Of a stretch of DNA of 64,000 nt, positions 1 through 61,605 are shown piece by piece. The stretch spans positions 2,426,001 through 2,490,000 of the forward strand of contig NZ_CP019980.1 in assembly GCF_002982115.1 (NCBI RefSeq), given 5' to 3'. A model generated the notes under the pieces. That model was not told the DNA's origin. It worked only from the letters and a program-made list of their open reading frames with translations, and ran no database searches. The stretch's first letter is position 1. Each line of letters opens with the position of its first letter. The stretch is from Lysinibacillus sphaericus. GTDB lineage: Bacteria; Bacillota; Bacilli; Bacillales_A; Planococcaceae. Position numbers and translations under genes: made by a program.

Positions 1-280
1 CTGTAATAGCTGCGACAGGTTTAAAGCCAGGTGTAACAACAAATAAAGCACGACCTGCCACTGAAATAGCAGACATCACTGCTATGACTAAAATTTCGCG
101 TGGCTGTGGCTTTCTACGCTCAAATGAAAGGAAAAAGGGGACACACGCTAAAATCATAATGACAATCGATACAAAATAATATTTTCGATCAGCAAAAATT
201 GTAATACCAGCATATAAAGAAAGTGGAATGAAAACTAGAATGACAATAAATGAAATAATTAATCGAATGTTTTTTTGCAT
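1..280 (-). CDS. ECF transporter S component, partial (C-terminus outside window)
   Basis: This is the N-terminal 93 residues of a membrane protein on the minus strand; the rest lies beyond base 1. Translation from the ATG at 280 gives a Lys/Arg-poor start, hydrophobic helices at about residues 6-25 and 35-52, then REILVIAVMSAISVAGRALF and FKPVAAI. That pattern resembles ECF substrate-binding (S) subunits of the CbrT-like group. The start overlaps the 3' end of the fused ATPase gene by 22 bases, so the two are translationally coupled. Position as last visible gene of a cobalamin-riboswitch operon suggests the substrate is cobalamin or another corrinoid. That specificity is inferred from context, not from residues I can check. 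Confidence 0.72.
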   Translation of the reverse strand, partial: MQKNIRLIISFIVILVFIPLSLYAGITIFADRKYYFVSIVIMILACVPFFLSFERRKPQPREILVIAVMSAISVAGRALFVVTPGFKPVAAIT

Positions 281-1911
281 AGAGTAACGACATCCTCACA
301 TGTAATCGCATTGCTCAATATATCTCTTGATATTCGATGCGCAGCAGTTGTATAAAAATTATTTCCACTATAAAATGCTCGTGGTTCGTCCTCTGATACG
401 ATACTACCATCGAAAAACAGAGCGCATCTATCGCTGTATTGTGCAGAAAATTCTATATCGTGTGTCACCATAATGATTGTTGTCCCTTTAGTTTGTAAAT
501 CTTTTAATATTTCTGCGAGCTCTTCCTTTGAATGTGCATCAAGACCTTTTGTCGGCTCATCTAGTAGCAGTATTTTAGGTTCTATTAATAAAATTTTTGC
601 AAGCGCTAATTTTTGCTGCTCACCACCACTTAAATCATAAGGATGTCGATTTAATAAATGAGTTAAATTGAATAATTGAACAGTTTCTTGAATTTTTGCT
701 TCTGTTACTTTATGTAATTGAGCCATGTCATTTAACTCTAGAAGTACTGTTTTTTGTACAAATAATGATTTCGGATTCTGTGGTAATACAGTTAAAAATT
801 GTTGGTACAATTGTTTACTACTGTAGCTTTTCAGGGCTTTACTGAACAAAAATATTTTTCCATGATAAGGCTTTTGTAGCCCAGATAAAATAGCAAGAAC
901 GGTTGATTTTCCAGTGCCGTTTCCACCTATTATCGTTAAAAATTCCTGTCCCTTCACTTGCAAATTAAAATGATGGACAATATCCCTGCCTTTCTTTTCA
1001 TACCGAAAAGCAACATCCTTTGCCTCTAATACAACATCTGATTTATTTTGAGTTATTGTATGAGGTGTGTGTAAGGGAGAACAGTTATATTGTTGGTTAC
1101 TAAGCCAGCGTTGTCCCTCACGAATAGTAAGAGGAATAGGACCTATACCGTTTAGTAGGTGGAAAATCTTTGTAGCTGCCGGCAGTGCTGTAATCATAGC
1201 GTGATTTGCTGGTAAAGAGTTTAAAATTTCCTTAGGTGGGCCATCAAATAAAATACTGCCTTCATCCATAATAAGTACGCGATCAGCAAGAGGCAACACT
1301 TCTTCGAGACGATGCTCAATTAAAATTATCGTAATACCTAATTCTTTATTTAAACGATGCAATGTCTGTATAAACTCCAATGCAGCTATTGGATCTAATT
1401 GTGATGTTGGCTCATCTAACAGTAGCAATTTGGGCTGCATCACCATAATGGAGGCTAAATTTAATAATTGTTTTTGTCCGCCAGAAAGCTCGATTGTTTT
1501 TTGATGAAACCATTTTTCAATACCGAAGAAATTGGCCATTTCGGCTACCCTGCGGCGAATTGTTGGTGAATCTAGACCTAGGCTTTCTAGTCCAAAAGCA
1601 AGTTCATGCCATACTTTATCTGTAACAATTTGATTATCAGGATTTTGAAATACATAGCCAATGTCAGTAGCAGCTACTTCAGCATTTAGCTTCTCCAAGT
1701 CACAATCTTTGTAGAAAATATTACCCGTCACCGTGCCATGTGGGCGCAATTCTCGTTTGAAATGGCGAAGCAATGTACTTTTCCCACAACCAGATTGGCC
1801 TATTAACACGATAAACTCGCCTTGCTGAATAGTTAGATTAATATTTTTTAAAATAGGAATTGCTTCATTAGGATAAGTAAAGCTTACATTGTCGATTTTA
1901 ACGATCGCCAT
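259..1911 (-). CDS. Fused ECF transporter ATPase (EcfA-EcfA' in one chain)
   Basis: A 550-residue tandem ABC ATPase that powers an energy-coupling-factor transporter at the inner face of the membrane. The first half has Walker A GQSGCGKST (about residues 38-46), signature LSGGQKQ and Walker B LLLLDEPTSQLD. The second half, from about residue 290, has GGNGTGKST, LSGGEQQ and ILLLDEPTKGLD. Both catalytic sites look intact. Most ECF systems use two separate ATPase genes; here they are fused with a linker at about 235-290. ATG is preceded by GGGGGG at 7 bases. The start lies inside the 3' end of ecfT and the stop inside the S-component start, consistent with one operon serving one dedicated transporter. 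Confidence 0.93.
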   Translation of the reverse strand: MAIVKIDNVSFTYPNEAIPILKNINLTIQQGEFIVLIGQSGCGKSTLLRHFKRELRPHGTVTGNIFYKDCDLEKLNAEVAATDIGYVFQNPDNQIVTDKVWHELAFGLESLGLDSPTIRRRVAEMANFFGIEKWFHQKTIELSGGQKQLLNLASIMVMQPKLLLLDEPTSQLDPIAALEFIQTLHRLNKELGITIILIEHRLEEVLPLADRVLIMDEGSILFDGPPKEILNSLPANHAMITALPAATKIFHLLNGIGPIPLTIREGQRWLSNQQYNCSPLHTPHTITQNKSDVVLEAKDVAFRYEKKGRDIVHHFNLQVKGQEFLTIIGGNGTGKSTVLAILSGLQKPYHGKIFLFSKALKSYSSKQLYQQFLTVLPQNPKSLFVQKTVLLELNDMAQLHKVTEAKIQETVQLFNLTHLLNRHPYDLSGGEQQKLALAKILLIEPKILLLDEPTKGLDAHSKEELAEILKDLQTKGTTIIMVTHDIEFSAQYSDRCALFFDGSIVSEDEPRAFYSGNNFYTTAAHRISRDILSNAITCEDVVTLCKKTFD

Positions 1912-2765
1912 TTTAATGCCCCCCAGATTTCAAATACTAATGGAATAGAGAGTAGAATGACATAGCTAATATAAAACAGAATGCTTGCTATATCCCATTT
2001 AACTGCTCCGAAAGTTGGATAAAAATAATATGTGGTTGTACCAATAAAGCTTGCAACTAAATTGCTAAAAAAAAGCAATATAATCATTGCCAAAACAAAG
2101 CCGTCACGACGCTCGAAAATAAAAATAGAAAAGGCAGTCCGCTTTTTGACACCGTAACCACGAGCTTTCATAGAATCAGCCGTATCAATGGCGTTATCCA
2201 ATGCCCATGTAATCAAAATTGATAAAATTTGCACGGTACATTTAATACGGTGCCATAGTGAGCCAGTTGTAAAATCCATGCCAATTACTTTTTGCGCTTG
2301 TACAATTTGCGTTAACTGATGTCTAAAGCGCGGAACTAATCGCAATGAAATCGACAATGTTAATGATAAAGATGGCGATACTTTTCCAAACAGATAAATA
2401 AACTTATCAGATGTCATCATGACATTGTAGCAGCTGAACCATAGCATAATCGCTACAATCATTGTGGCGATTGCGATACCATACAAAATGGCCTCTACAG
2501 TAATGGCGTTACCATTTACATAAAGTAATACAAGTTGACCATTATGGCTAATCATTGGATTAATAATCGCCATTAAGAAAAACAAAGGTACATATAACTT
2601 CCAGTCCTTAAAGAAAAGTTGTCTGCGTAAAGCTATATTTAAGCTGATTGCTGAGAAAATTGTAATAGTTAAATAGATTGGATGCATAAAAATCATGGAT
2701 AAGCCGATAGTAGCTACAAAAAAAGAAAAAAGTACGATAGGGTGAAATGTTTCAAATGTCTTCAT
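1884..2765 (-). CDS. ecfT: ECF transporter transmembrane component EcfT (CbiQ family)
   Basis: A 293-residue integral membrane scaffold that couples the ATPases to the S component. There are about five to six hydrophobic helices, a conserved cytoplasmic stretch around SLRLVPRF, and the coupling-helix motif ADSMKARGYG near residue 198. That is the Ala-Arg-Gly signature by which EcfT contacts the ATPases. The ATG overlaps the stop codon of the upstream lipoprotein gene (TAATG), and the 3' end overlaps the ATPase start by 28 bases. The dedicated T component and its position mark this as a group I-like ECF transporter with its own module, rather than use of a shared housekeeping ecfAA'T. Substrate is inferred from the riboswitch. 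Confidence 0.92.
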   Translation of the reverse strand: MKTFETFHPIVLFSFFVATIGLSMIFMHPIYLTITIFSAISLNIALRRQLFFKDWKLYVPLFFLMAIINPMISHNGQLVLLYVNGNAITVEAILYGIAIATMIVAIMLWFSCYNVMMTSDKFIYLFGKVSPSLSLTLSISLRLVPRFRHQLTQIVQAQKVIGMDFTTGSLWHRIKCTVQILSILITWALDNAIDTADSMKARGYGVKKRTAFSIFIFERRDGFVLAMIILLFFSNLVASFIGTTTYYFYPTFGAVKWDIASILFYISYVILLSIPLVFEIWGALKWRSLKSTM

Positions 2766-3622
2766 TAGTTACCATCCCAATGATGTCCTAGGTCGCGACC
2801 TAAATCGACCGTGTAGTTCCATTCAATGACATCGCCATCTTTTAATACGTATTGATTGCAACCATAATTTGGATAAACACCATTTACTTTGTACATCCAG
2901 CCACTTAATTCACCAGCACTAAATTCATATAAATGATTAATACCTTCTACATAGACACTGTTATAAATATTTTCGTTTGCTCCTTGATATTCCATTTGAA
3001 TTTTATGCTCCTTCGTTGCGCGCTGTAATACATCCCAAACAGTATCCTTCTCTGATAGTAGCTCGTATGTTGTTGTCTTTAAAATGATGCCGTTCTTGGG
3101 CACATATCTCTCACTTTGTAGGGAAGAGTCTAACTTTTCCCAATGCTTTAGTAATGTATCAACACGGATTGAAATTTTTACAGTGCGTTTTTTAGGTTCT
3201 GCATTTTTTTGCTTATCTGTAGATGAGTTAATTGTTTTTGTTTGTTGTTTATTATCAGCTTGTTTAGTAGTAGACAAATCAGTTATTGTACTTGGTAATT
3301 TGGTGTCTTCTTGCTTTTTGTCCGCTTCATGTTTTGGTTGTTGTTTTCCATCTATCGTTTTTTGCTGGGAATTTTTATCTATTTCCTCCAGTGGGGCCTT
3401 GTCACCTATCTCAGACTCCTTCACTTCCTGCTTTTCCTCAGCAGTGTCATTTTCTACTGAGGGAGTTTGTTCTTCCGCTTCAAGTTGTTCAGAGGGAGGG
3501 AGGGAGTCAGCGCTTCGGTCCTGATCTTCCATTTGCTCGAATTGCTCAACTGTTTGAATATTGCACGCAGTTAAAAATAGAGCTAACAACGATACGAGTA
3601 AGCAGTGTAAAATTTTATTCAT
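2765..3622 (-). CDS. Lipoprotein with C-terminal transcobalamin-like DUF4430 domain
   Basis: A 285-residue predicted lipoprotein. The signal peptide ends in lipobox LTAC, so Cys anchors it to the outer face of the membrane. A long low-complexity Lys/Gln/Glu/Asp linker (about residues 30-145) holds the C-terminal domain away from the membrane. That domain (about 150-285) carries the DUF4430 signature SGWMYKVNGVYPNYG and a VIEWNYT strand. DUF4430 is related to the C-terminal beta domain of animal transcobalamin. I chose the ATG one base after the upstream stop codon; an in-frame TTG at 3637 has its purine-rich site directly abutting it. Placed next to EcfT, it probably hands corrinoid to the S component; this is inference. 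Confidence 0.85.
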   Translation of the reverse strand: MNKILHCLLVSLLALFLTACNIQTVEQFEQMEDQDRSADSLPPSEQLEAEEQTPSVENDTAEEKQEVKESEIGDKAPLEEIDKNSQQKTIDGKQQPKHEADKKQEDTKLPSTITDLSTTKQADNKQQTKTINSSTDKQKNAEPKKRTVKISIRVDTLLKHWEKLDSSLQSERYVPKNGIILKTTTYELLSEKDTVWDVLQRATKEHKIQMEYQGANENIYNSVYVEGINHLYEFSAGELSGWMYKVNGVYPNYGCNQYVLKDGDVIEWNYTVDLGRDLGHHWDGN

Positions 3623-3623
3623 A

Positions 3624-5159
3624 TTATTCTTCAACAACCTTTAAGAAATTAATATACATTTTAGCTGCATGTGCACGAGTAATAAAATTAGTAGGATTAA
3701 ACGAGCCATTTGCGCCCTGTGCTATGTCAAAATCATACAAGAAAGTAATTGCCTGCTGAGATTCCTTTGATAGCTCCGCAATATCATTTAATGGTGCAAT
3801 GTTTGTTGGTATATAAGGTCTGCCTGTTTTATATGTATAGGCATTTGCTAGCATAACCGCTAATTCCTTACGTAAAATAGGGGAGGAAGGTGCAAACTTC
3901 TCCGACTTTACTAATAAATTTGCCTCGTAAGCAGCAGCAATCTCCTGTTTTGTTTCATCATTATAGGAGCTAATGTCTGTAAAAGGTGCATTTTTGGAAC
4001 TTGTTAAATGAAGAGCGCGAACTAAAATTGATACAGCCTGAATACGAGATAAATTGTTATTTGGCCTAAATGTATTATCGTCATAGCCTTTTAATAATCC
4101 TTTAGCTACTGCAGCTTCGATATCAGACTTTGCCCAATGAAATTCAATATCCTTAAAGCTCACTTTAGTAGGGGGAGCTTTAGGATGATTTGACTGAACC
4201 TGTGTTGATGGTTTATTTGTTATTTTATCAGACGTATCATATAACTTTGTTTTGCTCTCAATCAGTCGGTTATATGCTGCTAATGTATAAGACGCCTGCT
4301 CTGTTGCCATACCATTCGATACGGATTCTGTTAATACATGCTTGAAGCCGCCATCTTTTACATTATAGAAGGTGAAAAAGCTCGTAAATAACTTATGAAA
4401 GCGCTGATCTTTGTTGGCATCAATATTTAAACTAGCAAGTGCTGTAATAACTTGTGCTACACTTTCTAAGTTTGTTGTTCCCCAGCTTTGGTAACTACCA
4501 TTAGCTCCTTGTAAGTTATTTAATGTATCAAGTGCTTTATTAATAGATGCCTTAACATCCTCTCTATCCCTATAAGTTGAAAGAGCTTGAATAGCCATTG
4601 CTGTCATATCTGGATCAGCTTTCACTCCTGATAAATTCCATCCACCATCAGGCAATTGCTTTGATAGTATATGTTGAATAAGTTTTTCGCGTGTAGTTGT
4701 TGCTTTTTTAGGAAGCTCGAAGCCCCATGTGTCTAAAGCGATTAAGGCAAAAAAAGCACCATTTGTGCCTTGCCATACTACTTTGTCAAAGTCACTTAAT
4801 TTTTCTACTAAATTAAAGCCGCCTACATTTGTAGGGTCTTTACCGATAGCAGTGAGTGCAATAATTAAACGAGAATAATCAGTATACTTACGATTGTGTA
4901 AATTACCCTTTACGGATTGTACATGCTTCGTGACATTTTCATAATATTTATCATAATAGCCTTTCGGAACATTATATTCACCACGTGTAAGTGCCATAAT
5001 AATCCACTCATCACCAAAAGAAGGGTTTGGTGCTTTATTTACTAAAAACTGACCTGTTGTATCATAAGCATCTACTGTTGATACTTGCTGTGCAGAGACT
5101 GGAACCACAATTAACAACAAAGCAAGTACCATTATAAACATCGATAATTTTTGTTTCAT
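3624..5159 (-). CDS. Secreted alpha/alpha-toroid protein with three SLH domains
   Basis: A 511-residue exported protein. A signal peptide (about 1-25, ending VSAQQ) is followed by a prenyltransferase/squalene-cyclase-like repeat region (about 30-310) with repeated helices such as TAIGKDPTNVGG, LIALDTWGFELP and QLPDGGWNL. Three SLH repeats then run from about 335 to 511 (FKDIEFHWAKSDIEAAV, and FTDI and LNDI units) and should bind secondary cell-wall polymer. Enzyme-type DXDD acid motifs are not evident, so a binding rather than cyclase role is likely, like the alpha domain of intrinsic factor. ATG at 5159 has GGAGG 11 bases upstream; the in-frame ATG at 5177 lies upstream of that site. Lacks its own DUF4430, which neighbours supply. 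Confidence 0.85.
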   Translation of the reverse strand: MKQKLSMFIMVLALLLIVVPVSAQQVSTVDAYDTTGQFLVNKAPNPSFGDEWIIMALTRGEYNVPKGYYDKYYENVTKHVQSVKGNLHNRKYTDYSRLIIALTAIGKDPTNVGGFNLVEKLSDFDKVVWQGTNGAFFALIALDTWGFELPKKATTTREKLIQHILSKQLPDGGWNLSGVKADPDMTAMAIQALSTYRDREDVKASINKALDTLNNLQGANGSYQSWGTTNLESVAQVITALASLNIDANKDQRFHKLFTSFFTFYNVKDGGFKHVLTESVSNGMATEQASYTLAAYNRLIESKTKLYDTSDKITNKPSTQVQSNHPKAPPTKVSFKDIEFHWAKSDIEAAVAKGLLKGYDDNTFRPNNNLSRIQAVSILVRALHLTSSKNAPFTDISSYNDETKQEIAAAYEANLLVKSEKFAPSSPILRKELAVMLANAYTYKTGRPYIPTNIAPLNDIAELSKESQQAITFLYDFDIAQGANGSFNPTNFITRAHAAKMYINFLKVVEE

Positions 5160-5190
5160 TTGAAAAACAACCTCCATTCTATAAAAGATA

Positions 5191-5221
5191 CTAACCCAAA
5201 TGCTGTGATCACTTGGGTTAG
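5191..5221 (-). other. Intercistronic hairpin between two SLH-protein genes
   Basis: A perfect 9-bp inverted repeat (CTAACCCAA / TTGGGTTAG) with a 13-base loop sits in the 71-base gap between the two SLH-protein genes. No strong T-run follows on the minus strand, so mRNA stabilisation or weak attenuation is more likely than full termination. Confidence 0.45.
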
Positions 5222-5230
5222 TAAGGAAAA

Positions 5231-8200
5231 TTACATGATGCCTGCGATATTTAACGTACGTTTTAAAATTTTTGCTGTTTGTCCACGTGTTAAAGAAGCA
5301 CGTGGATCAAATGAACCATCCGGCTTACCTGTCATAATATCCAGGCTATTTAATAGCTCGATATAAGGCAAGTATTCAGCGCTAATATTGCTAGCGTCTG
5401 TGAAATTAACCTCTCCTGTGGCTTTCACATCAGCATTTAAATATTCTAAAATGCGTGCCATAAATGCCGCTGCTTGTTGGCGTGTAATCGGAGCTTCAGG
5501 ATTAAATGTTGAAGAAGTTGTGCCTTTTGTAATACCTGCCTCGAACAGAGCTTGAATATCTGTTGCATACCATTTGCCTTCTGTATCGTTAAATGGATTT
5601 TCACCTTTTGCCTGTAAACCAAGTGCACGGCTGATTAATACTGAAAATTGCGCACGAGTAATTGGTTTATATGGCTCAAACGTCTCTGGTGTAGTTCCTT
5701 TGATTACAAGACGGCTCGCTAAAAATTCAATTTCTTCTTTATTAGCTAAATGGGCAATATCGTTAAATGTTACTGTACTTTCTGTTACAACGAATGTACC
5801 ACTAGATTTTGTGAATAGAACAATTTCACCGTTCACAATTCTATGTGGAACAGGCTTGTATTCACTACCATCAAGCTGTAAAACGACCATATTCGGTTTT
5901 AACTCGTTGGCAAGTAGCGTAACTTTTAAATATTCTTTATCTATAGTAATTGACTTTGTTTTACCATTAGTAGCCTCAATACCGAATTTGACAGTGAATT
6001 GTTTATTTTTAGCTTCTTTCGTTACCGAGGCAATTATTTGCTCACTTTCTGTAAGCTTAATTCTAGTAAATATAGAAGTTGGAATTTCTATTTTGAAATT
6101 ATTTTTGCTTTGAATAACAAACTTTTGTACATTCTTTTCAAGATATTCTTTAATATGTTTGGATGTAATAATTGCTTTGTTACTACCATCTTCAATAGTA
6201 ATTTCAGCAACTGGATTATCTACATTTCCTCTGTTTCCTTTGTTTTCTTCATTTCCTTTATTCCCTTTATTCATTTCTTCAGCGCATTGTGCTTCTACGC
6301 CTGTACAATTATTTTCTGTCTCTTTGCAATTTTCTGTATTTTTACCCTTGCATTTTTCTTTGTTTTCTTCAGCTGGAGGGCCACTTTTTTCGCTTCCATC
6401 TTCTACATATCCACCGACATCTTTACCTAAATCGGTCGTATAAAGCCATTCAACTGAATCACCAGGTGATAGTGTGTAAAGTGCCGCAGAATAAGAAGGG
6501 TATTGACCATTTACACGATACATCCAACCACTTAAAGGACCTCGGTCAAATTCATAAACACCCGCAATTCCGTCAATATATGTTCCATATTCTGTTTGAC
6601 GATAGCTTAAGGCAACACTGTTTTCCGATGTTACTCGTTTTAAAACGTCAAAAGCAGTTTCACCAGCAAATAATTTAGTTGATGTTGATTTTAATGGCAC
6701 TTCAGAAGACGAAATTCGAATTGAGAATGTCGTATAACCAATTTCTTCATTATCAGAAGGTTGTCCATCAGGGTTAGAAGGTTGATTTCCTTTATCATCT
6801 GGGTTGGAAGGTTCTTCTCCATCGCTTCCATTGTCAATATCTCCTGGATTATTTCCAGTATTATCTGACTTTGTATCTGACATATCGTAAAGAGCAGTTT
6901 GATTATTTAATAAACGGTTGTATGCTGCTAATGTATAGCCAACCTGAACCGTTGCCATGCCATTTGCTTTGTTTTCGATTAATACATGTTTAAAGCCACC
7001 ATCTTCTGAGCTATATGTCATGATATTAGAAATGACTTTATTAAAACGATTATCGTTGTTAGCATTTATCCCTAAGCTTGCTAGAGCAGTCACAACCTGT
7101 GCTGCACTTTCAGCATTTTCAAAGTTATCTGACTTATATCCGCCATTAGGTAATTGAATAGCTGCTAATGTATCAATTGCACGATTAACGGCTGTTTTTA
7201 CTTCTGCATTACTTTGATAGTATGGAGCGAGTGATTGAATGACCATTGCAGTGATATCAGGGTCAGCTTCAGTACCAGCATAGGCAAAACCTCCATCGTT
7301 TAATTGCCTTTGTAAAATATATTTAATTAATTTTTCACGTGTTGTTGTAGCTGTTTTAGGTAATTCAAAGTCCCATGTATCGAGTGCAATTAAAGTGAAG
7401 ACCGCAGAGTTGATGCCTTGACGTGTTACAAAATTAAAATCTGTTAATTTTTCAACTAAATTATAGCCTGCGACATTTGTAGGATCTTTCCCGATAGCTG
7501 TAAGAGCTATTATTACCCGAGAGTAATCTGTTGCTTGAGAGGCGATTACGCCACTGTTTGATTTTACATGATTCTCTATATTTTTATAATATTTACTATA
7601 ATAACTATTTGATAAATTGACATAACCACCACGTGCAAGTGTTAAAATAGTCCACTCTGATTGATAGACAGGCTGCGGTGAGCTTGATACTAAATATTGA
7701 CCAACAGAGTTGTAGGCTTTAATCGTTGTTGGCTTCAATTCTACTAATCGCTTTTGTAAAGCCTCTAGCTTATTATAATTTGATACAGATTGTTTTTCTT
7801 GAGCTGACAAATTATCATAGGCTTGTTGTGTTGCATTAACTTTCAAATGATCCGCCCATGTAATCGAATCTATAGGGGGGAGCACGTTAATTTTAAATAT
7901 CACATCTTGAATCCGAGGGGCTGTTGTGAAAATGTTTTCTTTATCTACAAGCTCTTGATAATTATTTATTTTAGTTTTTTGATTTTTATCTAAGGCATTG
8001 TATGTTGTCCGAGCTTCTTCTAATTGTTTTTTTGTTGCCTCATCAGCAATCTGAATTGTTTCAGGAAGAGAGTCAATTAAATATAAAACATATTCAATTT
8101 CTTTATCTACAAGATTTTGGTAATTTATTACATTTACTTTTTGCTGTGCTGGTATTCCTTTGTATATTTTACGAGTAGTATTGAATAGTGAACCTAACTT

Positions 8201-9037
8201 TTCATTGCTTATTTCTAATGACGAAATAGTAGAAATTAAAAGTCCGACGTATTTCAGTTCCTTCTCTATTAAGATAGCCTCTATTTGCACTAGTTTCTTT
8301 TTTTCATTTAGTAGTAAAGTGTTCCATTTCGTACGAGCATTTATTAATTGTTGAGCAATTGTTTCATCTAATGTATCAAATGAAGGAATAGAATTAATGA
8401 AGGCTTCTACCAGTTGGCCTTCTTTTTCACCAAGTTTGTTATTGTAATTACTTATTAATGCTTTTTTCTTTTGATCTAGTGTTAATGCACTATATGTTTT
8501 ACGAGCTGCTGTTAATTGTAGTTCTGCTACCTCATCAGCAACTATAATTTCTGGGAGGTTATTCACCAAATTTATAAAGTTTTGTTCTTCAGGTGTAATA
8601 ACATATATATTAACTGCCTTAGATACTTCACCAACTTTTACGTAAATCTGAGCATCCCCAATTGAAATCGCTGTAACTAATCCTTGATTGTCAACTGTTG
8701 TAATTGTAGGAGCACTCGATGACCATTCAATTAGGGTACTATCTTCTGTTGTTGAGCTAGCTACAGCAAGTTGCGATGTTTCTCCAATTGTTAAAAATAA
8801 AGGTTCTGTCGTATTTAATTGAATATCACTAATTGTATTCGGCGCATTCTCTATTAATGGCGTCATAGTTAATTGTTCATTTGGATTGTCTAATTCTGTG
8901 TTATTTATGTCTGAAGTGTTTTGCTCGTATGTTTCTCCTTCAAGATGCTGTGCTTTGCCAGTGGCAGCAGGGGATAATAGCGAAAATATTAAAATAAAGA
9001 TAATGACTAAATGTATTTGCTTTTTAAAAATATCCAT
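5231..9037 (-). CDS. Giant SLH-anchored protein: Ig-like, helical repeats, toroid, DUF4430 (transcobalamin-like)
   Basis: A 1268-residue surface protein. In order (numbering from a GTG four codons upstream): signal peptide to about 33; a bacterial Ig-like (Big_2) domain about 76-150; five helical repeats of about 65 residues at 155-440 (units like INSIP...ARTTYNALDKNQK...NYQELVDKE); an alpha/alpha-toroid 441-720 matching the neighbouring toroid protein; an Asn/Pro/Asp linker; DUF4430 at about 770-880 (SGWMYRVNGQYPSYS, VEWLYTTDLGKDVG); an Asn/Lys/Glu-rich linker with five cysteines; an unassigned beta-rich segment 950-1090; three SLH repeats 1093-1272. Toroid followed by DUF4430 is the intrinsic factor/transcobalamin order. 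ATG at 9037 chosen because AAGGAAGTGAG precedes it; the GTG at 9049 abuts that site. Probable cell-wall corrinoid receptor; binding is inferred. Confidence 0.87.
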   Translation of the reverse strand: MDIFKKQIHLVIIFILIFSLLSPAATGKAQHLEGETYEQNTSDINNTELDNPNEQLTMTPLIENAPNTISDIQLNTTEPLFLTIGETSQLAVASSTTEDSTLIEWSSSAPTITTVDNQGLVTAISIGDAQIYVKVGEVSKAVNIYVITPEEQNFINLVNNLPEIIVADEVAELQLTAARKTYSALTLDQKKKALISNYNNKLGEKEGQLVEAFINSIPSFDTLDETIAQQLINARTKWNTLLLNEKKKLVQIEAILIEKELKYVGLLISTISSLEISNEKLGSLFNTTRKIYKGIPAQQKVNVINYQNLVDKEIEYVLYLIDSLPETIQIADEATKKQLEEARTTYNALDKNQKTKINNYQELVDKENIFTTAPRIQDVIFKINVLPPIDSITWADHLKVNATQQAYDNLSAQEKQSVSNYNKLEALQKRLVELKPTTIKAYNSVGQYLVSSSPQPVYQSEWTILTLARGGYVNLSNSYYSKYYKNIENHVKSNSGVIASQATDYSRVIIALTAIGKDPTNVAGYNLVEKLTDFNFVTRQGINSAVFTLIALDTWDFELPKTATTTREKLIKYILQRQLNDGGFAYAGTEADPDITAMVIQSLAPYYQSNAEVKTAVNRAIDTLAAIQLPNGGYKSDNFENAESAAQVVTALASLGINANNDNRFNKVISNIMTYSSEDGGFKHVLIENKANGMATVQVGYTLAAYNRLLNNQTALYDMSDTKSDNTGNNPGDIDNGSDGEEPSNPDDKGNQPSNPDGQPSDNEEIGYTTFSIRISSSEVPLKSTSTKLFAGETAFDVLKRVTSENSVALSYRQTEYGTYIDGIAGVYEFDRGPLSGWMYRVNGQYPSYSAALYTLSPGDSVEWLYTTDLGKDVGGYVEDGSEKSGPPAEENKEKCKGKNTENCKETENNCTGVEAQCAEEMNKGNKGNEENKGNRGNVDNPVAEITIEDGSNKAIITSKHIKEYLEKNVQKFVIQSKNNFKIEIPTSIFTRIKLTESEQIIASVTKEAKNKQFTVKFGIEATNGKTKSITIDKEYLKVTLLANELKPNMVVLQLDGSEYKPVPHRIVNGEIVLFTKSSGTFVVTESTVTFNDIAHLANKEEIEFLASRLVIKGTTPETFEPYKPITRAQFSVLISRALGLQAKGENPFNDTEGKWYATDIQALFEAGITKGTTSSTFNPEAPITRQQAAAFMARILEYLNADVKATGEVNFTDASNISAEYLPYIELLNSLDIMTGKPDGSFDPRASLTRGQTAKILKRTLNIAGIM

Positions 9038-9089
9038 TTGAAAACTCACTTCCTTTAGAGATGTTGCTAGTAATATCTAAAAAAACAAT

Positions 9090-9138
9090 AGTACTGAAAA
9101 AGTGCATTTCTTTAAAATGGATTCACTTTTTCAGTACT
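9090..9138 (-). terminator. Internal hairpin/attenuator after the first operon gene
   Basis: A perfect 15-bp inverted repeat (9090-9104 with 9124-9138) lies between the first and second genes of the unit. On the minus strand the right arm is followed by ATTGTTTTTTT. It probably works as a partial terminator, so the small secreted DUF4430 protein would be made in excess over the downstream genes. Confidence 0.65.
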
Positions 9139-9145
9139 TAATTAC

Positions 9146-9877
9146 TTAGTTATTGGGTGTTACGTCAATAGTTAATGGTTCACTTGTTGAACCACCAAGT
9201 AGTGCATTTGCAGAGGCTGTAATCGAGATACCACCTTCTGCAGCTTGACCAGAAAATGTGATAACTGCTTGTTGATCTGTGTTGACAGTAATTGATTGAG
9301 CTGTTAACGCTGTAGTACCTGTGTTAATTGTCCAATTAGCAATATTAGAGGCATTTGTTAGAAATAGGTCACCCGTTAAATCCACAGTAACCTTTGGATT
9401 TATTTGTCCTACATCCACTGTGCTAGCAGTGCCCAGCTTAGCCCATGTCGTATAATAAATATGAACTTTATCATCAGGCTCTAATTTATAAGCATCTAAA
9501 CCAACAGTTGGGCTAATACCATTTACAGTGTATACCCAACCATCCCAACCATTTAAGCTGCCACTAGCTCGCCCATCAACAGATTCAAGATAAGGACCAT
9601 AGATAGGATGAATAGTAACTATATATGGAATACCGTTTGCTGTTAATGTATTTTCCATTAGTGATAATGCCGTAGTTCCAGTTGAGACAATCTCTGTTGT
9701 TGCTGGTAGGATGGAGCCATATAAACCGTCAACAGCTAATTGGACATCGAATGTTGCAATTTGTGCCTCTTGTTTTGTAGGTTGTAATACTGTTGTTGCA
9801 CTTGCTGTCGGTGATAATAGCGAAACAGCTAAAAGAAAAGCGAACGCTATATGCCACCATTTTTTAAAAGTAACCAT
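9146..9877 (-). CDS. Secreted DUF4430 (transcobalamin beta-domain-like) protein
   Basis: A 243-residue exported protein: signal peptide about 1-27 (ending ASATT), then a DUF4430-like domain about 40-145 with GWDGWVYTVNGISPTVG and DKVHIYYTTW, then a Thr/Val/Ile-rich beta domain about 150-243. There is no lipobox, SLH or sortase motif, so it should be released or held by the other surface proteins. The start has AGGAGG 8 bases upstream, in a leader (TTTTCAAAATG) much like those of the two SLH-protein genes, which suggests they arose together. It is the first gene after the cobalamin riboswitch. A soluble corrinoid-binding 'hemophore-like' role is my inference; it carries the beta but not the toroid half. 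Confidence 0.8.
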   Translation of the reverse strand: MVTFKKWWHIAFAFLLAVSLLSPTASATTVLQPTKQEAQIATFDVQLAVDGLYGSILPATTEIVSTGTTALSLMENTLTANGIPYIVTIHPIYGPYLESVDGRASGSLNGWDGWVYTVNGISPTVGLDAYKLEPDDKVHIYYTTWAKLGTASTVDVGQINPKVTVDLTGDLFLTNASNIANWTINTGTTALTAQSITVNTDQQAVITFSGQAAEGGISITASANALLGGSTSEPLTIDVTPNN

Positions 9878-9930
9878 TTTGAAAACCTCCTAATTTTATT
9901 GTAGTGAAAGTTTTTGCGATTAACTCCAAT

Positions 9931-9965
9931 AAAAAAGATGCTTCTCTTAAAAAAGGGAAGCATCC
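9931..9965 (-). terminator. Riboswitch-controlled intrinsic terminator
   Basis: On the minus strand, GATGCTTC pairs with GAAGCATC (arms 9957-9964 and 9937-9944) and six T residues follow. It sits between the cobalamin aptamer and the first gene, so it is the natural expression platform for transcriptional shut-off when cobalamin binds. Confidence 0.85.
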
Positions 9966-10061
9966 AAGGTAAACAGAAAAGGAGCATAATAAAATAATAT
10001 GCCTGTCCATCTATTTGCCGTAAGTTCTCCTAGCTTCCGAAGAGAGTTAATACGATGGAAT

Positions 10062-10228
10062 AAAGGCAGGTCTCCTGGCTCGTGTATCCTATTCAGAACC
10101 TTCCCATCTACTGGGGGCATTTTTCCCCGTTTGACAGTGGTATTTTCTGTAGTCATCTACACTTACAGTTGCGGAAACAGCTTCGGCTTTGCACCGAATT
10201 CCCTATTAAGCTCTTAAAAGAGCACCTT
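10062..10228 (-). promoter_or_regulatory. Cobalamin (adenosylcobalamin-type) riboswitch aptamer
   Basis: Read on the minus strand the segment has the conserved order of the cobalamin aptamer: GGTGC near 10226-10222, GGTGCAAAGCCG, GCTGTTTCCGCAACTGTAA, CCACTG, GGGAAGG, and the B12 box GAGCCAGGAGACCTGCC at 10081-10065. All core elements are present and undamaged. It lies 190 bases upstream of the first DUF4430 gene with a terminator between. This is the main evidence that the operon handles cobalamin. Confidence 0.97.
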
Positions 10229-10258
10229 TATTCTGCAATTGCTATTCACTTGATGTTT

Positions 10259-10286
10259 AGTTTAACATATTTTCCTCATTTTCCAA
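10259..10286 (-). promoter_or_regulatory. Candidate promoter of the cobalamin operon
   Basis: On the minus strand TTGGAA (10286-10281) and TAAACT (10264-10259) are separated by 16 bases, about 30 bases ahead of the riboswitch. It is a moderate match to a sigma-A promoter. Confidence 0.45.
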
Positions 10287-49494: not shown

Positions 49495-49540
49495 TGCAAA
49501 CGGTATCAAAAAATAGTGTACGAATATTTTTGAATAGATG

Positions 49541-49626
49541 TTCCCTACGCTGGTACGAGCCAAATCAGGTTCAAAGGGTCAGCATCTGAACGGACGCAAT
49601 CTCAGCTGGCAACTTCCAGCCCCCCT
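49541..49626 (-). promoter_or_regulatory. TPP (thi-box) riboswitch
   Basis: Read on the minus strand: GGGGGGCTGG, GCTGAGATT, ACCCTTTGAACCTGAT, and CCAGCGTAGGGAA, which is the complete thi-box order. It controls the thiamine-precursor uptake operon through the terminator downstream. Confidence 0.96.
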
Positions 49627-49794
49627 ACATTCTTAACTTATGAACTTTTCGTTGATTATTATACCCCTATCTATCTTCAAATGACAAGCTCGTATTTTTA
49701 AACCTTTAAAATCAGCCTTGCTGTCGATGCCTATCATAAGCGAGCAAATTTCTTTCTAATTAGTAATTCGTTTTCCAAAGCATTTTGCTAGATG

Positions 49795-61238: not shown

Positions 61239-61254
61239 AATTATCACGTTCACT

Positions 61255-61358
61255 CTTATCTCTCAAAGGAAAAATCCTTTGGTGGAATTAGCACCTTTCT
61301 AACAATGTTAGAGGTTGCTGAAGCGTCATAGGGCCAAATCCCTCAGCTTCTCTTGATA
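61255..61358 (-). promoter_or_regulatory. SAM-I (S-box) riboswitch
   Basis: Minus strand: CTTATCAAGAG, GCTGAGGGATTTGGCCC, ATGACGCTTCAGCAACC, GGTGCTAATTCC, and closing CTTTGAGAGATAAG pairing with the start. All S-box elements are present in order. Confidence 0.96.
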
Positions 61359-61605
61359 AGATTATTCAATTAAAAAGAATTGTATCATGAACAATTAAGA
61401 ATTTCAATAATACATAGAATATTTTGTATTTAAACGAATGGAAGCTTATGAATTGTTAAACACTACTATCAAGTTATATTTTTGACAGCCAGTCCCAATT
61501 CTAATAGGCATACACGAAAATTAATGGAACCAATAAATCGTAATGGCAATCATAGAGGTATTATGTTAACATATACCTTTAGTAACAGAGAGGAACGTGA
61601 ATATT

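Follow-up and report, generated by a model that had tools for sequence, protein, structure and literature searches.

An operon behind a cobalamin riboswitch in Lysinibacillus sphaericus, predicted to capture corrinoids at the cell surface and to import them through a CbrT-like ECF transporter

We analyzed a stretch of 64,000 nucleotides from the Lysinibacillus sphaericus genome (NZ_CP019980.1, positions 2,426,001 to 2,490,000; hereafter the window), the source genome being a single contig of 4.68 Mb. At its left end a cobalamin riboswitch and a terminator hairpin are followed, from right to left on the minus strand, by seven genes (Table 1). Four of these encode exported proteins carrying an alpha/alpha-toroid module (T), a DUF4430 module (D) or both, and three encode an energy-coupling factor (ECF) transporter with an S component homologous to CbrT. 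We interpret the operon as a cobalamin-repressible corrinoid import system in which T and D modules would capture the substrate at the cell surface and hand it over to the transporter, and assign this interpretation a probability of about 0.8. A system of this kind is not new, having already been described as a genome-based prediction (Burroughs et al. 2007; PMC1796856).

A preliminary description, made from the DNA sequence, had recognized an ECF transporter made up of EcfT, an EcfA-A' fusion and an S component, and had proposed that it imports corrinoid. Family searches agree with these assignments (Table 1), EcfA-A' also exceeding the cut-off of TIGR04521. The S component extends past the edge of the window; read from the genome, the full protein has 231 aa (G000:C1:2425585-2426280; L014:8585-9280, minus strand). 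Its sole significant match in the PDB was 6fnp_A (E 1.2e-10), with nothing else below E 0.3, and the matching stretch of 6fnp_A, searched back against the genome, returned only the S component up to E 10 (E 2.2e-10, 26% identity). Entry 6FNP is the ECF-CbrT cobalamin transporter of Lactobacillus delbrueckii according to the available text of its description (PMC5997447), and chain A, listed under the label "membrane protein", is presumably CbrT itself, judging from its homology to our S component. The same text reports that cobalamin and its precursor cobinamide are bound by CbrT and transported by ECF-CbrT. As in that system, a homologous S component (each the other's best match) is combined with EcfT and two EcfA halves; the differences are the modest identity of the two S components and the presence in Lysinibacillus of a dedicated ECF module, with a fused EcfA-A', in the same operon as the surface proteins. 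No CbiM family match was found in the S component, and a cobalt transporter was rejected on the grounds that a separate CbiM locus has its own riboswitch and that the S component is CbrT-like. Because the B12 riboswitch, the CbrT-type S component, the ECF module and a near-perfect co-occurrence across genomes (see below) all point to it, the proposed role in corrinoid uptake is well supported at the level of sequence.

Table 1. Features of the operon, listed in the direction of transcription, with positions in the window.
Feature	Position	Strand	Evidence
Cobalamin riboswitch aptamer RF00174, complete	10048..10244	-	cmscan 110.9 bits, model 1-189, gathering score 31.5
Terminator-like hairpin followed by T run, between aptamer and gene 1	about 9936..9965	-	fold -14.5 kcal/mol, z -3.77
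Gene 1, DUF4430 protein, 243 aa	9146..9877	-	Pfam DUF4430 53.1 bits, cut-off 23.8; signal peptide by eye
Hairpin and T run, between genes 1 and 2	9090..9138	-	fold -21.7 kcal/mol, z -5.51
Gene 2, surface protein, 1268 aa (ATG) or 1272 aa (GTG)	5231..9049	-	Pfam domains
Terminator-like hairpin, between genes 2 and 3	5189..5223	-	-20.7 kcal/mol
Gene 3, toroid and SLH surface protein, T-only, 517 aa	3624..5177	-	Pfam
Gene 4, DUF4430 lipoprotein, D-only, 290 aa	2765..3637	-	Pfam DUF4430 69.1 bits; lipobox LTAC
EcfT (CbiQ family), transmembrane coupling subunit, 293 aa	1884..2765	-	PF02361 32.5 bits, cut-off 25
Fused EcfA-A' ATPase, two ABC domains, 550 aa	259..1911	-	PF00005 in two stretches; TIGR04520 383 bits, cut-off 315
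S component, N-terminal 93 residues in window	2..280	-	PF07155 44.3 bits, cut-off 26.7

The four exported proteins contain, above the Pfam cut-offs, DUF4430 in three (53 to 69 bits), a Prenyltrans toroid in two (27.3 and 30.8 bits, cut-off 26.5) and S-layer homology (SLH) domains in two. These three are the only DUF4430 matches in the entire genome. The protein of gene 2, for which the ATG start of the 1268-aa form is better spaced than the upstream GTG, is laid out as a Big_2 domain, a spacer, a toroid (about residues 440-726), a DUF4430 domain (796-871) and three SLH domains; its toroid is 57% identical over 287 residues (BLASTP) to that of the 517-aa protein. It had been suggested that the exported proteins are built from only two modules and are anchored to the wall. 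The former is correct for the candidate binding modules and leaves out Big_2 in the 1268-aa protein and SLH in both larger proteins; the latter applies to the two SLH proteins, the third being a lipoprotein and the 243-aa protein having no recognized anchor, where signal peptides and lipobox were assigned by eye. The genome has one gene of PF04230, the csaB family required for SLH anchoring. The genes for the 517-aa T protein, the 290-aa D protein, EcfT and EcfA overlap by 14, 1 and 28 nt, an arrangement that coupled translation would lead one to expect; genes 1 and 2, by contrast, are each separated from the gene that follows by a strong hairpin. That the exported genes lie side by side by chance was rejected, since the arrangement is conserved across 41 genomes.

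Toroid plus DUF4430 had also been equated with the architecture of animal transcobalamin and intrinsic factor, a view that is supported in part. A 78-residue stretch of transcobalamin-2 (PDB 5no0) scores 28.3 bits against Pfam DUF4430 (cut-off 23.8), so that the D module and the transcobalamin beta domain fall in one Pfam family. The same stretch is the top, if weak, PDB match of a profile derived from the DUF4430 domains of the operon (E 0.087), and transcobalamins have DUF4430 at their C-terminal end according to the available text of PMC4350170. The toroid, on the other hand, matches the Prenyltrans and squalene-cyclase families, its profile has squalene-hopene cyclases as best PDB matches, and a search of the genome up to E 10 gave no match to PF01122, the animal alpha-domain family. 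For these reasons membership of the toroid in the animal family is not claimed, and a full animal-type carrier was rejected. At the level of sequence, it is the DUF4430 domain alone that supports a link to transcobalamin, and a transcobalamin-like working of T and D together is suggested by module order, regulation and neighboring genes. The 1268-aa protein shares with the animal carriers a toroid followed by DUF4430; the operon differs from them in that its modules occur more than once, in varying order and on several separate proteins attached to wall or membrane. A further point of comparison is BtuG of Bacteroides, a surface lipoprotein likewise catching B12 outside the cell and encoded within B12 transport loci; BtuG2 is, in the text available, a seven-bladed beta-propeller working with the outer-membrane protein BtuB (PMC6143338), and thus has another fold and another transporter than the Lysinibacillus operon.

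Conservation of the gene set was examined in 200 genomes drawn from the order. DUF4430 was found in 41 and the S component in 43; both are present in 41 genomes and neither in 157, the S component occurring alone in two and DUF4430 alone in none. In one of the two exceptions (G113) the cluster is cut off by the end of its contig, which lies about 0.6 kb upstream of the shortened EcfT frame, next to a short transposase-like open reading frame (ORF; reading by eye, L161), and in the other (G179) the S component match is at E 8.6e-4 and has two stops. At least one DUF4430 gene lies on the strand of the S gene and within 20 kb of it in 41/41 genomes. The preliminary description had called for a genome search for this gene set beside B12 riboswitches; a same-strand upstream cobalamin riboswitch was found in 40 of the 41 genomes, made up of 21 genomes among the scan matches listed, the window, and 18 of 19 further segments. 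Based on distances from a sequence hidden Markov model (HMM), the gap between the riboswitch and the T or D gene that follows it is no more than 300 nt in 38 of the 41. In the other three, none was found (L036, genome G048), the segment stops short of a riboswitch seen in L080 (L046), or the riboswitch seems to fall inside an ORF whose start was called too far upstream (L024). The core order T, membrane-anchored D, EcfT, EcfA/S is present in 34 of 41 clusters, and the same cluster is found in the close relative Lysinibacillus mangiferihumi (L082). Nine genomes carry further DUF4430 genes elsewhere, and eight of nine such extra loci, examined in five genomes, have a riboswitch-like sequence (E below 1e-4).

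Two paralogous clusters, L165:5454-12547 (minus strand) and L169:2026-14296 (plus strand), run D, T, D, EcfT, EcfA and continue with a MoxR-type AAA gene and a DUF58 gene (Pfam assignment from L169). Their T protein has a C-terminal hydrophobic tail (by eye), and no S component was detected in either cluster; a riboswitch-like sequence is present upstream in L165 and none in L169.

On a wider scale, a scan of 84,980 species with the toroid alignment gave 108 relatives, the best 80 of which, mostly from Clostridia and Paenibacillus and including Ruminococcus bromii, were used and resolved into 79 loci. DUF4430 is present in 72 of these, EcfT in 62, and EcfT together with the S component in 56; the full order T, D, EcfT, EcfA/S is seen in 50/79, some of the others ending at contig ends. 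Of 19 wider loci scanned with cmscan, 11 have a match to RF00174 and one other a match to RF01482; the riboswitch of L089 lies on the downstream side of its cluster. When five loci were scanned less stringently, sub-threshold cobalamin matches appeared directly upstream of the first gene in three, including R. bromii (L099), at 25.6-28.9 bits (gathering score 31.5), and none in the other two. The riboswitch sequence HMM, which was trained partly on sequences from loci later scanned and which also supplied the 300-nt distances above, gave 43 matches in 39 of the 79 loci and zero in one shuffled control. All 43 are on the operon strand, and for 38 of them a gene for T, D or EcfT follows within 800 nt. 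The clostridial clusters L111, L117, L135, L158 and L160 have a second EcfT-like gene directly after the S component.

We propose that the system would work as follows. Low intracellular cobalamin would allow transcription to pass the terminator, as expected from the class of the riboswitch, and the exported proteins with their toroid and transcobalamin-like beta-grasp modules would then be made. Two of these proteins would be held in the wall by SLH domains and one in the membrane as a lipoprotein, the remaining one apparently being released. Most likely, a corrinoid would be gripped between T and D modules in the manner of transcobalamin and intrinsic factor, and would be concentrated in the wall. 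The corrinoid would finally be passed to the CbrT-like S component and imported with EcfT and EcfA-A' using ATP.

Several observations weigh against this interpretation. The need for capture is not obvious, because the host encodes much of the corrinoid pathway as well as other solute-binding loci behind B12 riboswitches. The S component shares only 26% identity with CbrT. The toroid may bind something other than a corrinoid, given that its best PDB matches are squalene-hopene cyclases and that PF01122 is unmatched. The relay would also have to differ between clusters, because five (L047, L048, L049, L057 and L058) lack a separate D protein and in another (L062, genome G180) only D, S and the ATPase were found, with no T or EcfT. 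As for regulation, no riboswitch was found in the 4.8 kb upstream of the main cluster of G048 (L075, L036), and 40 of the 79 wider loci, some of them cut by contig ends, had no match with the sequence HMM.

Those who doubt the capture step may argue that the transporter carries corrinoid and that the toroid and DUF4430 proteins are merely co-regulated with it, serving instead in wall attachment or in the binding of polysaccharide, peptide or isoprenoid. The sequence affinities of the toroid just mentioned favor this view, and a reviewer of the 2007 paper, in the part of the published record available, cautioned against assuming B12 for all members (PMC1796856). Yet none of the genomes examined in the order has DUF4430 without also having the S component, the transcobalamin beta domain belongs to DUF4430, and cobalamin-riboswitch-like sequence precedes all seven of the nine examined extra DUF4430 loci that are without EcfT, as well as one of the two with EcfT; we consider a non-corrinoid function improbable. 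The identity of the corrinoid is a separate matter, and the system might be specific for a precursor or variant, such as cobinamide or a cobamide without dimethylbenzimidazole, instead of cobalamin. Both cobalamin and cobinamide are substrates of ECF-CbrT in the text cited above (PMC5997447), and in this genome Peripla_BP_2 proteins are already encoded at other loci with B12 riboswitches, a CobT-family enzyme being present as well. The sequence does not discriminate between these substrates, however, and riboswitch control alone leaves the substrate unfixed; on present evidence we regard a specificity of this sort as rather unlikely.

The biosynthetic capacity of the host bears on why such a system would be kept. 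Homologues of CbiJ, CbiD, CbiET, CbiL, CbiF, CobB/CbiA and CobQ score above their curated cut-offs, those of CbiC, CbiG and CobA fall below theirs, and the CbiM and CobT families are present. CbiD is found in 13 of 41 genomes with the capture system versus 53 of 159 without it (Fisher p 1.0), that is, it is absent at the same rate from carriers (28/41) and non-carriers (106/159). Compensation for lost B12 synthesis was rejected, as there is no association with CbiD absence. The surface modules could instead recover corrinoid lost by the cell itself, keeping a costly cofactor of its own making, and not scavenge from outside. Such recapture is a possible role in producers, and the many pathway homologues of this genome and the equal frequency of the system with and without CbiD are both in its favor; the 28 carriers without CbiD exclude it as the general role, and as an alternative to scavenging we find it improbable.

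Returning to surface capture with hand-over to the ECF transporter, the separate T and D proteins of the conserved core invite a more specific model. The D protein adjoining EcfT has a lipobox in 41 of 92 cases and a hydrophobic N-terminus in 48, with neither in three, where the assignments follow simple rules for motifs and hydrophobicity. Among the DUF4430 classes it shows the highest conservation, with a mean pairwise identity of 0.55 (n=92) versus 0.32 for the others (n=141), means that mix the order and wider locus sets, with some genomes occurring in both. This conservation and the anchor would fit a protein that touches both corrinoid and transporter. The T protein of the core is wall-anchored in many lineages, and elsewhere T and D are fused, in both orders, and also repeated, forms which suggest that the two modules act together. 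It is conceivable, and we offer it tentatively as the less probable outcome, that the pair forms a split transcobalamin, in which a T-only protein and a membrane-anchored D protein would close round one corrinoid in trans and the opening of the pair on the S component would be the hand-over. The larger T-D proteins would then be a wall-wide reserve of the same clamp, and the animal carriers would descend from a fused form. Against this model stand the five clusters without a separate D protein, the cluster with no T or EcfT found (L062), and the variable anchors of the T proteins, SLH domains being present on 46 of 63 toroid ORFs in the order set and 47 of 99 in the wider set.

The leader agrees with the earlier account of a complete B12 riboswitch followed by a terminator (Table 1), and the hairpin between aptamer and gene 1 is probably the expression platform of the riboswitch. 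The hairpin between genes 1 and 2 may be a partial terminator or a stem that segments the mRNA. Stem-loops between surface-protein genes are seen in many species, mostly at -15 to -32 kcal/mol with a few weaker, values computed without a shuffle control; a conserved T tail is mostly absent from them, and partial termination or mRNA segment stability are candidate roles. A conserved attenuator at the terminator between genes 1 and 2 was rejected, the stems recurring across species and the T tails mostly not.

The whole genome contains 13 cobalamin riboswitches. By coordinates, the genes behind the others include those for MetE, ribonucleotide reductase, a CobT-family enzyme, cobalamin adenosyltransferase, CbiM, corrin-pathway enzymes and Peripla_BP_2 binding proteins, so that they are mostly ordinary B12 genes. 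One of these riboswitches (G000:C1:2420052-2420244, plus strand) lies outside the left edge of the window and heads an operon (L014:3391-8443, plus strand) that converges on the S component gene and encodes an oligopeptide/nickel-type ABC transporter with an SBP_bac_5 binding protein. Members of NikABCDE have been placed behind B12 riboswitches in Clostridium tetani and Desulfitobacterium (PMC2667541, text available in part), and by analogy the neighboring operon may encode a cobalt or corrinoid-related importer. Behind another riboswitch (G000:C1:2691871-2692061) lie a short ORF and the genes for a PepSY_TM membrane protein and for a 387-aa protein that could be assigned to no family with confidence (L017:5186-8562, minus strand), possibly a set of unrecognized corrinoid-related genes. 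A 267-aa ORF downstream of a further cobalamin riboswitch (L016:849-2083, plus strand) has zero Pfam matches up to E 1. The window also contains a thiamine pyrophosphate riboswitch (49525-49636, minus strand, 72.5 bits) and an S-adenosylmethionine riboswitch (61253-61362, minus strand, 99.8 bits).

Burroughs et al. (2007; PMC1796856), in the portions available, described secreted Gram-positive proteins with domains resembling the transcobalamin C-terminus fused to alpha/alpha toroids, in either order and with Ig or FIVAR modules, encoded in operons together with a CbiO-like ATPase and a membrane protein resembling CbiQ, frequently alongside a second SLBB protein. They predicted that the two domains cooperate in scavenging B12 or its precursors, and proposed a transfer from Gram-positives to animals, so that the resemblance was not read as a parallel. 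The Lysinibacillus operon is in accord with their description in joining secreted toroid and transcobalamin-like proteins, three of them with DUF4430, to CbiO- and CbiQ-like genes. It departs from it in that they noted that carriers are usually without key B12 biosynthesis enzymes, whereas this genome has much of the pathway and 13/41 carriers have CbiD. The words riboswitch, S-layer, SLH, CbiM and lipoprotein are absent from the main text of that paper, and relative to the literature searched the riboswitch linkage, the CbrT-type S component, the SLH anchoring, the separate T/D core and the lack of a link to cbiD absence are new. A literature search, with most subscription journals outside its reach, found no experimental test of bacterial DUF4430 or toroid B12 proteins.

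With the riboswitch linkage, the CbrT homology and the near-perfect co-occurrence, what was long a prediction from domains becomes a specific set of genes that is open to expression studies and assay. If the prediction is true, many Gram-positive bacteria, among them Lysinibacillus, Paenibacillus, Clostridium and Ruminococcus bromii, would catch B12 at the wall using relatives of the module that carries this vitamin in human blood and gut. Such capture would be relevant both to B12 competition in gut and soil and to the proposal made in 2007 that the animal carriers were acquired from Gram-positives.

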